The notes below the pieces were generated by a model. That model saw nothing but the letters and a program-made list of their open reading frames with translations. It made no database searches and was not told the origin of the DNA. A program made the position numbers and the translations under genes. 64,000 bases of DNA, from NCBI RefSeq assembly GCF_021117295.1, contig NZ_CP088247.1, forward strand, positions 3,053,001 through 3,117,000, in the 5' to 3' direction. The stretch comes from Methylorubrum sp. B1-46. Lineage in GTDB: Bacteria; Pseudomonadota; Alphaproteobacteria; Rhizobiales; Beijerinckiaceae. Every line of letters begins with the position of its first letter. Within the stretch, counting starts at the first letter, position 1. Below are positions 4,130 through 15,346 of the stretch, piece after piece.

Positions 4130-4627
4130 ATGCCGGGTTTGCCCACCCTTCTTCTGGATCTCGCCGGCACGACCTGCGCCTTGCCGCGGGCCGAGATCCG
4201 CGAGATCCTTCCTCTGCCGCGCCTGCACGCGCCGCCGGCCGCGGGGGGGCCGCTCGCCGGCTTCCTCAACCTGGCCGGTGAGCCGGTGCCCGTCATCGAT
4301 CTCGCCGCCTTGTTCGACCTTCGCGCCGCCGGCGGCGACGATCCCTACCGGCACGTCCTGCTGGCCCGGCAGGGCGCCATCGCCTTTCTCGTCGACCGTG
4401 CGCTCGATCTCATCCAGGTCGAGACCGATGCGCTGCGGCCGGTCGAGGTCGCCCGCAGCCTGAACGGCTGCGTCGTCGGCGAATTCGCCTGGGCCGGTCG
4501 GCTCGTGCATCTCCTCTCGCTCGACCGGATCCTCACCCTCGAAGAGCGGACCCGGCTCGACGCGCTGACCCGGCAGGCGACGACGCGGCTCGCCCGGTTC
4601 GAGCCCGAGGGCGCGCGCCCGGCCTGA
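4130..4627 (+). CDS. CheW-like adaptor (WspB-like position)
   Basis: A 165-residue CheW-domain protein, first gene of the chemosensory operon. CheW adaptors couple methyl-accepting receptors to CheA at the membrane. The beta-rich domain shows CALPRAEIREIL and the characteristic GFLNLAGEPVPVIDLAALF block, then AFLVDRALDLIQV. I chose the ATG at 4130 because it has GAGGA upstream and starts next to the fold; the frame also stays open to an ATG at 4034. Ten bases separate it from cheR. Order in the operon (adaptor, CheR-TPR, adaptor) matches wspB-wspC-wspD. Confidence 0.88.
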   Translation: MPGLPTLLLDLAGTTCALPRAEIREILPLPRLHAPPAAGGPLAGFLNLAGEPVPVIDLAALFDLRAAGGDDPYRHVLLARQGAIAFLVDRALDLIQVETDALRPVEVARSLNGCVVGEFAWAGRLVHLLSLDRILTLEERTRLDALTRQATTRLARFEPEGARPA

Positions 4628-4637
4628 GACCCCGATC

Positions 4638-11763: not shown

Positions 11764-13481
11764 CCGCGAGCGCAAAGCCCGCCACCGCGTCCGGCCACCG
11801 GCTGTTGCTGGTGGAGGATTCGGAGACTCAGGCGCTCGAACTGCGGCTGCAGCTCGAAGCGCAGGGCTTCTCGGTGAAGCGCTGCGCCACGGCGGAGGCC
11901 GCGCTCGACCTGCTCAACACCGACCTCCCCGACCTCGTCGTCGCCGACCACCATCTGCCGGGCATGAACGGCGACGAGTTCACCCGGCAAATGCGTTTGT
12001 CGCTGCGCACCCGCGCGCTTCCGGTGGTGATGCTCACCGGCACCCGCAACGGCGAGCGCCACGGCTTCGAGAGCGGCGCCGACGCCTATGTCGAGAAGTC
12101 CGCCGACCGCGATCTCCTCGTGCTGCGCATCCGCGCCCTGCTGCGCGAGCGCAAGAACAGCGCCACGGAAGGCCCGTCCGGCGCCGCCTTCCGCCGCGGC
12201 CGGGTTCTCGTCGTCGACGGCAGCGCCACCTACCGCGCCTTCTTCACCGGGCTCCTTACCCAGGAGGGCCACACCGTGGTCGCCGCGGCCGACCGCTCGG
12301 CGGCGCTTGCCGCCCTCGACGAGCCGGGCGCCGGGTTCGACTGCGTCACGCTGGACCTCGTCGGCAGCGCCTATGACGGCATCGCGCTCTGCACCGAGAT
12401 CGCCGAGCGCCGCATGAAGGCGCCGGAGGGGGGCGGCAACGCTTTCCCGCTCGTCGGCATGGCCGGGGACAAGCCGGACAAGAGCCTGCTGGTGGCCGCC
12501 TTCGCCGCGGGCGCCGACGACGTGGTCTCGAAGGCCGACGGCGAGGTGCTGGCGATGCGGGTGCGCGGCCTCGTCCGCCGCCGTCTGCTGGAGGAGGACA
12601 ACCGCCGCATCTCCGGCGAATTCGGCGACCGCGAGCGGGCAGTGGAACGAGCCCGCGCCGAGGCCGAGGCCGCCGCCGCCCGCGCTGCTCTGGCCGACGC
12701 GCTGGAACAGGCCAACAGCGACCTGGAGGACGCCAACCGAAAGCTCACGGAAGCGCAGGCCAAGCTCGTCCAGGCCGCCAAGATGGCCTCGCTCGGCGAG
12801 TTGGTGGCCGGCATCGCCCACGAGATCAACAACCCGCTCGCCTTCATCCTCGCGCATCAGGGCACGGTGGAGCGCCTGCTCGGCGAGTTGCCGCCGCCGG
12901 AGGGGCCCGAGGGGCAGCGGGCACTGACGAAGGCGCGCGACCGCGTCGGCTCGATGCGGCTCGGCCTCACCCGCATTCAGGATCTCGTGCTCAATCTGCG
13001 CAAGTTCTCGCGGCTCGACGAGGGCGAGCGCGGCCTCGTCAACGTGCCGGAGGCGATCGAGACGGTGCTGGCCCTGATCCAGCACAAGCTCGGCACGCGC
13101 ATCCACGTGACACGCGACTTTTCCGGACGGCCGGAGATCTCCTGCACCCCGGCGCTCCTCAATCAGGTCGTCATGAACATCCTCGGCAACGCCGCGGACG
13201 CGATCCACGGCGAGGGCACGATCACGGTGTCGACCTATTCGGACGCCGAGACCGACATGATCCGCATCAGCGACACCGGGCCGGGCATTCCGGAGGATCT
13301 GCGGGAAAAGATCTTCGAGCCGTTCTTCACGACCAAGCCGGTCGGATCGGGGACCGGACTCGGCTTGGCGATTGCGTACAGCGTCGTTCAGGCGCATAGC
13401 GGCTCGCTGACCGTGGAGACGGCGCCGGGCGGCGGCGCGAGCTTCGTCATCGGCATTCCGAGGCAACCGGCACCGGTATGA
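11760..13481 (+). CDS. REC-REC-histidine kinase (CheS3-like output)
   Basis: A 573-residue soluble protein; its ATG overlaps the cheB stop. Receiver 1 (about residues 12-125) has Asp63 in [12 protein letters not shown]. Receiver 2 (about 140-275) is more diverged, with Asp199 in [14 protein letters not shown] long Ala/Glu/Arg coiled coil (about 285-345) leads to HisKA with His354 ([12 protein letters not shown]) and an ATPase domain with DTGPGI and [15 protein letters not shown]. Tandem receivers ahead of a kinase resemble CheS3 of Rhodospirillum centenum, which acts below CheA3, though I see no PAS domain here. It probably receives phosphate from the operon's CheA and relays the signal; this is inference. 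Confidence 0.88.
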
Positions 13482-15346
13482 GCAAAGGCACGATCCTGGC
13501 CGTCGATGACGAGCCGGACATCCTGATCGCTCTGGAGGATTTGTTCGAGGACGAGTACCGGGTGCTCACCTCGGCCAAACCCGAGGAGGCGCTCGACATC
13601 CTGCGCGCCGATCCCGACATCGCCGTCGTGGTTTCCGATCAGCGCATGCCGGGCATGACCGGCGACGCCCTGCTGGCCGAGGCGCGGAGCTTCCACGAGG
13701 CGCAGGCCATCCTGCTCACCGGCTACGCCGACATCTCGGCGGTGATCGCGGCGCTCAACCGCGGCGGCATCATCGGCTACGTCGCCAAGCCCTGGGATCC
13801 GACCCTGCTGCGCGCCACGGTGCGCAACGCCTACGAGCGCCACCGCCTGGGCCGGGATCTGGCCACCGAACGCGCTCTGCTGCGCGGGTTGCTCGACCAC
13901 GCCGAGGAAGCGATCTCCTTCAAGGACGCGAAGGGCCGCTTCGTGCGCCTCAACGCGCGCAAGGCCGGCCTCGTCGGCAGCACGGTCGAGGCCTGCCTGG
14001 GCCGCACCGAGATCGAGGTCGCAGACACAGCCGAGGCCCGCGAGGCAGAGGGTGTGGACCGCCGCGCGATCGCCGCCGGAGAGGCAGGATCGACGGTGAC
14101 CGCCCGCGGTGCGCTCGGCGCGGAGCGCTGGTCGCACATTATCCGCGTGCCGATCCGCGGCGGCGCCGGCGAGGTGACGCATCTCGCCACGATCGAGCGG
14201 GACGTGACCGAGCAGAAGAGCCTTGAGGCACGCCTGCGCCAGTCCGACAAGATGCAGGCGCTCGGCACGCTGGCCGGCGGCATCGCCCACGATTTCAACA
14301 ACCTGCTTACCGCCATCCTCGGCAGCCTCGAACTGGTCGGCCCGAAGATCGCCGACCAGCCGCGGGTCAAGCGCCTCGTCGACAACGCCACCGGCGCGGC
14401 GCAGCGCGGCTCGGCCCTCACCAAACGGCTCCTGAGCTTCAGCCGCTCCAACGACGCTCATGCCCGGCCCGTGGACCCGAATGCGCTGATCGAGGGCATG
14501 AGCGCGCTGTTCGGCTCGAGCCTCGGCAGCCTCGTGCGGGTCGAGCGCGATCTTGAGCCCGACATGCCCTTCGCGATGGTCGATCCCGACCAGCTCGAAC
14601 TGGCCGTGCTCAACCTCTGCATCAACGCCCGGGACGCGATGCCGGACGGCGGCACCGTCACCATCTCGACCCGCCGCGCCGAGATCCACGACGATCCGGA
14701 TCTCAAGCCGGGCACCTACGCCGTCCTCACCGTCGCCGACGAGGGCACCGGCATCCCGCCGGAAATCCTGGAGCGGGTCTGCGAACCGTTCTTCACCACC
14801 AAGGCGGTGGGGCAGGGGACGGGCCTCGGGCTTGCCATGGTGTTCGGCCTCGCCCAGCAGGCGGGCGGGCGCCTGCGCATCACCAGCGAGGTCGGGCAGG
14901 GTACCCGGATTGAGCTCGCCCTGCCGCGCGCCGTCGGCACCATCGAGGGTACGGAACCGGAGGTCGTGCCCGTGGTGCCACCCGCGGCAAGTCCGGCACG
15001 CATCCTCGTGGTCGACGACGACCCGGAGGTTCGGCACGTCACCGCTTCCTTCCTCAACGATTTCGGTTACTCCGAGACGGAGGCGCCCGACGGCCGCAGC
15101 GCCCTAGCCCTGCTCGAACAGGGGCACAGCTTCGACCTCGTCGTGGCCGATCTCGCCATGCCGGGCATGACCGGCGTCGAGCTCGCCAGCGCGATCCGGC
15201 AGCGCTTCGCCGGCCTGCCGGTGTTGCTGCTGACGGGCCATGCCGAGGCCGTTCAGATCCCGGAGGATCTGCCGGTGATGACGAAGCCCTTCGCCTCCGC
15301 GGAACTCGCCGCCCGCGTGTCGCAGCTCCTCGAAGCGGCGGTCTGA
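13478..15346 (+). CDS. REC-PAS-histidine kinase-REC hybrid
   Basis: A 622-residue soluble hybrid kinase with its ATG overlapping the previous stop. Order: receiver (about 4-120, Asp54 in VVVSDQRMPGMTG), PAS (about 135-250, EEAISFKDAKGRFVRLNARK), HisKA with His271 (GIAHDFNNLLTAILGS), ATPase (GTGIPPEI, GQGTGLGLAMVF), and a C-terminal receiver with Asp558 (VVADLAMPGMTGVEL). The HDFNN H-box type commonly accompanies a C-terminal receiver. It is the last gene of the operon and, with the preceding kinase, occupies the place where Wsp clusters encode the diguanylate cyclase WspR. No DNA-binding output domain is present, so a downstream Hpt or regulator must lie elsewhere. Confidence 0.9.
   Translation: MSKGTILAVDDEPDILIALEDLFEDEYRVLTSAKPEEALDILRADPDIAVVVSDQRMPGMTGDALLAEARSFHEAQAILLTGYADISAVIAALNRGGIIGYVAKPWDPTLLRATVRNAYERHRLGRDLATERALLRGLLDHAEEAISFKDAKGRFVRLNARKAGLVGSTVEACLGRTEIEVADTAEAREAEGVDRRAIAAGEAGSTVTARGALGAERWSHIIRVPIRGGAGEVTHLATIERDVTEQKSLEARLRQSDKMQALGTLAGGIAHDFNNLLTAILGSLELVGPKIADQPRVKRLVDNATGAAQRGSALTKRLLSFSRSNDAHARPVDPNALIEGMSALFGSSLGSLVRVERDLEPDMPFAMVDPDQLELAVLNLCINARDAMPDGGTVTISTRRAEIHDDPDLKPGTYAVLTVADEGTGIPPEILERVCEPFFTTKAVGQGTGLGLAMVFGLAQQAGGRLRITSEVGQGTRIELALPRAVGTIEGTEPEVVPVVPPAASPARILVVDDDPEVRHVTASFLNDFGYSETEAPDGRSALALLEQGHSFDLVVADLAMPGMTGVELASAIRQRFAGLPVLLLTGHAEAVQIPEDLPVMTKPFASAELAARVSQLLEAAV

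Follow-up and report, generated by a model that had tools for sequence, protein, structure and literature searches.

A Che3-class chemosensory operon of Methylorubrum sp. B1-46 with two hybrid histidine kinases as its proposed serial output

The chemosensory operon analysed here lies at 4130-15346, + strand, of a 64,000-nucleotide stretch of the Methylorubrum sp. B1-46 genome (the window; contig NZ_CP088247.1, positions 3,053,001 to 3,117,000). Pfam identified eight co-directional genes encoding CheW, CheR-TPR, a second CheW, a methyl-accepting chemotaxis protein (MCP), CheA-REC, CheB and two hybrid histidine kinases, HK1 and HK2. Comparison with related loci leads us to favor, with reasonable though not strong confidence, a serial output, in which the signal would pass from the MCP through CheA to the first receiver of HK1 (REC1), from HK1 to the N-terminal receiver of HK2 (N-REC), and from HK2 to its own C-terminal receiver (C-REC) and then to an unlinked carrier. 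Pfam found no DNA-binding, GGDEF, EAL or HD domain and no stand-alone CheY among the eight genes, and a motif scan placed a GGDEF-motif frame (46926-48446) ~31.6 kb from the operon. An earlier interpretation made from the letters alone (the sequence-only reading) had proposed the order of the first six genes, the REC-REC-HisKA and REC-PAS-HisKA-REC architectures of the last two (the PAS is PAS_4), the lack of DNA-binding or cyclic di-GMP (c-di-GMP) output in the operon and a GGDEF protein 31 kb off, all of which were borne out.

The window CheA belongs to the Che3 class, an assignment based on its grouping with CheA3 of Rhodospirillum centenum and not on published class profiles. The tree comprised 34 CheA cores, 28 Che3-class rows and six others; the 28 Che3-class rows, the window and R. 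centenum CheA3 among them, fell on one side of a branch with a support of 100/99. Forcing the window clade together with two Wsp-type CheAs cost 51 log-likelihood units (approximately unbiased (AU) test, p 0.0002), and forcing it together with the other CheA of the genome cost 48 (AU p 8e-5). Also outside the clade is a CheA from Halomonas (L055), which has a further REC-GGEEF gene in its vicinity. The "Wsp-like" label of the sequence-only reading is thus contradicted by the tree, and the gene order differs too; membership in Wsp was dropped, as the cluster also has no REC-GGDEF output gene. The same tree rejected a place in the class of the other CheA of the genome, which we infer to be the flagellar one, in agreement with the suggestion that the system is not of a flagellar class, and the suspected kinship with the Che3/CheS3 pathway of R. 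centenum is supported by the CheA clade and by homologous double receivers. The R. centenum locus (L184) shows the six published residues (CheS3 D54, A191 and H453; CheA3 H49 and D663; CheY3 D64). In genome G355 (L026/L069), kinases of the HK1 and HK2 types stand in front of a che cluster; as the types are the same while the CheA lies outside the Che3 clade, this pair may have been transferred between chemosensory systems.

The likeness of HK1 to CheS3 goes deeper than had been stated from the sequence alone, since its two receivers are homologous to those of CheS3. In the REC tree, HK1 REC1 and CheS3 REC1 fall in one clade (support 99); the REC1 domains form one clade (99), the REC2 domains another (97), and both are joined at 91, as would be expected from an old tandem duplication. 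The REC1 active site of HK1 is intact (Glu19, Asp20, Asp63, Thr93, Lys113). REC2 (Asp153, Gly154, Asp199, Ala235, Lys258) keeps Asp199, and because one residue of the acid pair (Gly154) and the Thr (Ala235) are lost, it is probably not an ordinary phospho-acceptor. Asp199 had been listed earlier beside the other candidate acceptors, but this degeneracy speaks against treating it as their equal, and the idea of two equally active receivers in HK1 was dropped. CheS3 of R. centenum is laid out alike, with D54 in REC1 and A191 in REC2. Between REC2 and HisKA (His354) the residues resemble a coiled-coil linker on inspection, and Pfam found no PAS there at E up to 0.01, as the earlier description of HK1 as lacking an evident PAS had it.

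Double-REC proteins were collected from 107 loci, the window included, and 103 were usable (those of L073, L093, L117 and L136 were missed or cut). Both active sites are complete in 21 of them, REC1 only in 60, REC2 only in 22 and neither in none, i.e., REC1 is kept in 81/103 and REC2 in 43/103. The decay of REC2 takes different forms: Microvirga has mostly exchanged the Asp for Asn and the CheS3 group mostly for Ala, and in Methylobacterium the acid pair mostly contains a Gly and the Thr is replaced by Ala or Gly. REC1 has decayed in the split form of Azospirillum and in L085. On the FastTree CheA tree, two state changes suffice per receiver. A REC-REC-kinase-REC protein of 963 aa, ~40% like HK1, was also found in a 20-kb stretch with no CheA (L027 of genome G175, 7791-10682), and long frames with a similar double receiver occur in several Azospirillaceae genomes.

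The proposed step from HK1 to HK2 draws on the genes that accompany the kinase behind the double receiver. Defining HK1-type by our own cut of more than 200 bits to the HK1 kinase, we counted 65 HK1-type kinases among the 103 loci, together with five HWE kinases, 21 kinases in a separate gene, 11 other HisKA kinases and one fused HK2-type kinase (L133). The next gene begins with an HK2-type receiver in 63/65 HK1-type loci, and such a receiver is next door in 0/36 loci with other kinase types (two contig ends dropped). Beyond Methylobacterium and Microvirga, the HK2-type matches include Roseomonas, Magnetospirillum, G355, Latescibacterota and Acidobacteria records. The "additional hybrid kinase" of the sequence-only reading is indeed present, but it is the usual neighbor of HK1-type kinases rather than a peculiarity of this genome.

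None of the six double-REC kinases that bear their own C-terminal REC has a receiver gene next door, and a receiver gene is adjacent in 65/68 HisKA-type loci without a C-terminal REC (missing in L083, L086 and L139; two of the 65, L075 and L058, were entered by hand on account of their long open frames). In a phylogenetic test, the pattern "C-terminal REC or receiver gene next door, not both" came down to only three independent pairs on supported branches (median p 0.25). In Geminicoccus (L147, 3942-6503), a double-REC kinase behind CheB carries its own REC and an Hpt, and would thus hold the greater part of a phosphorelay within a single polypeptide. The HWE kinases of L054, L072, L185 and L186 gave no BLAST match to the HK1 kinase, and that of L184 a 20-residue match only. 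In the CheA tree, the HWE-type loci group with Magnetospirillum (85/84), and as a grouping of HWE with the window clade was not rejected (p 0.18), the HisKA form is likely, rather than certain, to be the older one.

HK1-type kinases outside che operons provided an independent check. From 299 genomes of the phylum we took the 20 best such relatives of the HK1 kinase in rank order, skipping one match inside another's stretch. The stretches around them contained no CheW, CheR, MCP or CheB domain, and CheA-kinase matches nearby were taken for shared ATPase matches. An adjacent co-directional receiver gene was present in 13/20, and in 10/20 the adjacent receiver was HK2-type with a margin of >10 bits. 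The 20 weakest HK1-kinase relatives among the matches listed had an adjacent receiver in 15/20 and an HK2-type one in 1/20; for 20 HK2-kinase relatives (100 genomes searched) the numbers were 3/20 and 0/20. Fisher p was 0.003 for 10/20 vs 1/20, and 0.0003 for 10/13 vs 1/15 when only kinases with any adjacent receiver were considered, both uncorrected for kinship among genomes. The ten adjacent HK2-type response regulators comprised four REC-HD_5, two REC-sigma54-HTH and four REC-REC proteins, and in the operon the PAS-kinase-REC part of HK2 seems to stand in for the usual effector.

Several observations weigh against a serial output. Eleven proteins of Methylobacterium and Microvirga served as seeds for the HK2-type receiver profile, and the same 11 are among the 63 pairing matches. 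These two genera also supply most of the 65 HK1-type loci; therefore, the independent cases are far fewer, by our estimate about six distant lineages. Two HK1-type loci deviate, L086 having no co-directional HK2 gene and L082 a REC-HD_5 protein instead, and L106 (153 bits), which misses our 200-bit cut and was counted as "other", has a different kind of receiver. Among the free-standing kinases, 7/20 have no adjacent receiver gene, and 3/13 adjacent receivers could not be called (margins of -1, +1 and +3 bits). Moreover, CheA could feed HK2 N-REC directly.

According to the serial reading, the operon receptor with its own CheW, CheR and CheB would set the activity of CheA (key residues Hpt His42; REC Asp632/633, Asp678, Thr708, Lys730). 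CheA~P would drain into its own REC and, as the CheA3-CheS3 homology suggests, phosphorylate HK1 REC1, switching the HK1 kinase up or down, with REC2 presumably a mostly structural partner. The available part of the R. centenum study reports that CheA3 phosphorylates its own REC and, with that REC disabled, CheS3 REC1; genetically, REC1 phosphorylation turns CheS3 down, and CheS3 labels CheY3 (PMC3868531). This transfer from CheA to REC1 is the sole step of the proposed route with an experimental precedent, in R. centenum. HK1 would then phosphorylate HK2 N-REC, as the pairing suggests, and N-REC would control the PAS-kinase of HK2, from which phosphate would pass to C-REC and, more speculatively, to an unlinked Hpt, ChpT or single-domain regulator. 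The N-REC site (Asp10, Asp11, Asp54, Thr81, Lys104) has its Asp, Asp, Asp, Thr/Ser and Lys conserved in 61/61 HK2-type proteins; HisKA has His271, and the C-REC (Asp558) is present in 54/61 and absent in seven. From its gene position, N-REC had been suspected to be a CheY3 orthologue, which was rejected because CheY3 forms its own clade in the REC tree and its genes lie elsewhere, upstream of CheW in HWE-type clusters. The genome has six Hpt matches, two of them CheA Hpts. Its single ChpT-family gene lies directly beside the other cheA (L030, G000:C1:1976000-1995900). CstR, an orphan single-domain regulator described for M. extorquens in the available part of PMC13344952, was considered as the end point, and nothing was found that speaks for or against it. 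Rather than flagellar reversal, the system would probably set a state of physiology or development.

The receptor of the operon also differs from its counterparts. In our alignment its signalling domain is longer than that of most of the 27 other receptors, with an excess of ~14 residues in the first arm and seven in the second (two matches are partial), and its hairpin tip, ISERTHLLALNAAIEAAAAGE, is unlike that of most others. Because of these differences in length and tip, it likely forms a separate array. The longest signalling domain of the genome in this alignment belongs to another receptor (L187, G000:C1:2850998-2851534), perhaps a third length class.

CheA might instead phosphorylate HK1 REC1 and HK2 N-REC alike, with the two kinases working side by side. 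Both receiver sites are complete and the kinases are encoded together, as parallel branches would have it; however, HK2-type receivers accompany HK1-type kinases even without CheW, CheR, MCP or CheB nearby, and their absence beside a CheA/REC-REC core with another kinase (0/36) is the reverse of what a CheA donor would lead one to expect, which makes this arrangement unlikely. It is also quite unlikely that the system is Wsp-like in effect, its kinases ending on an unlinked diguanylate cyclase or phosphodiesterase that sets c-di-GMP. CheR-TPR and CheA-REC are as in Wsp, HK2-type receivers are fused to HD_5 domains, which we take to be HD-GYP-like, in 4/10 response regulators examined elsewhere, and REC-HD_5 takes the place of HK2 in one Acidobacterial operon. 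Against these stand a CheA outside the Wsp-type clade and an operon without GGDEF, EAL or HD domains, the window's GGDEF-motif frame being so distant.

The cell-cycle pathway CckA-ChpT-CtrA offers another destination, as HK2 might feed ChpT in the way CckA does and so tie the receptor to the cell cycle. HK2 scores 332 and 311 bits with two CckA models, though far below their cut-offs of 1000, and a ChpT-family gene is available. This resemblance is not specific, because fifteen other places in the genome match the kinase-REC part of HK2 at 220-315 bits; with C-REC missing from 7/61 HK2-type proteins, we regard the ChpT route as decidedly unlikely. Very improbable, finally, is a side-branch of flagellar chemotaxis in which the array helps to tune the flagellar CheY. 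The genome, of 5.5 Mb, does have one other CheA-type locus, in another che cluster near 1.985 Mb, and 28 MCP-domain matches, but the window CheA does not group with the other CheA, the receptor differs in length class and tip, and a stand-alone CheY is missing from the eight genes. The sequence comparisons support, rather, a system of alternative function that would not be flagellar.

The serial reading is part of a broader proposal that we put forward tentatively, rating it slightly below even: CheA, HK1 and HK2 would form a linear cascade, REC1-REC2 would be an old socket for CheA behind which kinase-receiver pairs were exchanged, and the R. centenum version would be derived. If so, this would be a cascade of three kinases, the later ones each controlled via the phosphorylation of their own N-terminal receiver. 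The socket would cross phyla and accept pairs of the HK1-HK2 type, the HWE-CheY3 type and others, one of its receivers being free to decay while the other stays active, and the laboratory model would be the derived form, the window version the more widespread one. Chemosensory arrays are usually thought to end on CheY, a diguanylate cyclase or a DNA-binding regulator. The family of the window, which extends from Methylobacterium and Microvirga to records under the labels of Acidobacteria and further phyla, would end on other kinases, and arrays could have been rewired by keeping CheA and the double-receiver adaptor while changing the kinase-receiver pair. Strains of Methylobacterium are plant bacteria amenable to genetics and, to our knowledge, form no cysts; therefore, a role of the array outside cyst formation is directly testable there. 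The formation of dormant cysts is under the control of the distant cousin pathway, R. centenum Che3 (PMC3868531, in part), the one version of this little-studied wiring that has been elucidated in the laboratory.

The operon is scattered in its distribution. HK1 matches at E up to 1e-60 occurred in 8/385 genomes of the class, its own included, two of which (G246, G379) match the kinase part only. At E 1e-80, matches were found in 15/397 genomes and 4/141 genera of the order; among the genomes listed in that search, HK1 is present in its own genome and in 8/8 of the same genus, and in 0/11 of the same family and another genus. When named genomes were scanned with an alignment of CheAs, 256 relatives came up and 80 loci were retained, a sample biased towards the CheA family of the window because its CheAs served as query. 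The named genera are Methylobacterium, Microvirga, Roseomonas, Belnapia, Azospirillum and Magnetospirillum; other records are labelled Acidobacteria, Planctomycetes, Verrucomicrobia, Latescibacterota, Elusimicrobia, Desulfobacterales and Sericytochromatia, several of them metagenome-assembled genomes whose labels may be wrong. The order CheR, MCP, CheA, CheB is complete and co-directional in 72/80 loci and hence not due to chance; in the remaining eight the contig breaks off 1-4 kb short of the CheA kinase domain. At least two upstream CheW places were found in 71/80. The operon also occurs on a 194 kb Pseudoroseomonas plasmid, and this, together with the patchy distribution, suggests horizontal transfer.

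Table 1. Genes of the chemosensory operon in the window
Feature	Coordinates	Strand	Evidence
CheW1 coupling protein	4130..4627	+	PF01584 E 6.9e-21; ATG 4130 or alternative GTG start 4034
CheR methyltransferase with C-terminal TPR-like repeats	4638..6113	+	PF01739 E 6e-45, CheR_N
CheW2 coupling protein	6110..6667	+	PF01584 E 4.8e-17
Operon MCP, HAMP and signalling domain	6664..8418	+	PF00015 E 5e-29, PF00672
CheA-REC hybrid	8441..10681	+	Pfam Hpt, HATPase_c, CheW, Response_reg
CheB methylesterase and receiver	10678..11763	+	PF01339 E 1e-55, PF00072
HK1, REC1-REC2-linker-HisKA-HATPase	11760..13481	+	Pfam, 103-protein alignment, REC tree
HK2, N-REC-PAS_4-HisKA-HATPase-C-REC	13478..15346	+	Pfam

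The genes are tightly packed, and the start/stop overlaps described earlier along most of the run are seen directly at five junctions: CheR/CheW2 (ATGA, 6110), CheW2/MCP (TTGA, 6664), CheA/CheB (GTGA, 10678), CheB/HK1 (ATGA, 11760) and HK1/HK2 (ATGA, 13478). Gaps of 10 and 22 bases separate CheW1 from CheR and the MCP from CheA. The TPR_2 match of CheR and the 4HB_MCP likeness of the MCP sensor domain are weak and below the Pfam cut-off, and the start codon of the MCP is uncertain (TTG 6664 or internal). HK1 is 90-92% identical to proteins of Methylorubrum zatmanii, M. populi and Methylobacterium sp. Leaf456, and 96% to one further protein. Just upstream of CheW1, on the same strand, lies a MucR/Ros-family regulator (3509-3991; 99% identical to that of M. 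rhodesianum), which was rejected as an operon member, as it stands beside the operon in 1/18 loci (M. rhodesianum, L151; flank lengths vary). Convergent with the operon, 15911-17374 (-) combines WD40 repeats with a C-terminal cytochrome c domain (Pfam), an unusual pairing. Further downstream are a MoeA with a fused C-terminal PBP-like domain (18573-20549, +) and another MCP, the second in the window, which has a 4HB sensor and belongs to the ordinary class with a short signalling domain (22639-24315, -).

Among the titles and abstract openings listed for the open-licence literature, we found no paper on this operon in Methylobacterium, nor on the exchange of kinase-receiver pairs behind CheA. 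The Cupriavidus (L053) and Burkholderia (L057) clusters, which we take to be Wsp-type from their gene content, share CheR, CheW, CheA-REC, CheB and a single receptor with the window, but their CheAs belong to another clade, and in Cupriavidus the MCP comes first. The Cupriavidus cluster ends on a REC-GGEEF gene; none was seen in the stretch examined from Burkholderia. For clusters with cheR-TPR (alternative cellular function, ACF, class), the available part of PMC3447774 reports that a histidine kinase module is present in ~40% of the response regulators in question, receivers fused to kinases being common and their phosphorylation probably modulating the kinase; it describes architecture classes in ACF clusters, not the window operon itself. 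The CheA3 of the Bradyrhizobium che3 cluster, as far as the available part of PMC13390405 goes, is 636 aa long and is said to be devoid of the CheY-binding domain; the cluster has no cheY. In He et al. 2013 (PMC3868531, in part), a heading presents the che3 cluster of R. centenum as an alternative cellular functions system. This cluster has the same order of CheR, MCP, CheA, CheB and double-REC kinase, a CheA-REC of the homologous clade and a homologous REC1-REC2 pair whose REC1 is intact and whose REC2 is degenerate. In contrast, CheS3 combines a PAS with an HWE kinase and acts on a stand-alone CheY3 encoded upstream, whereas HK1 is a HisKA kinase without PAS, followed by the HK2 gene; by these differences HK1 is not a CheS3 orthologue in the strict sense. 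The Azospirillum clusters (L049-L051, on plasmid replicons) share CheW-CheR-CheW-MCP-CheA-CheB and a homologous REC-REC protein with the window, but there the REC-REC protein is separate (255-266 aa), with REC1 degenerate and REC2 intact, and the kinase-REC is a gene of its own.

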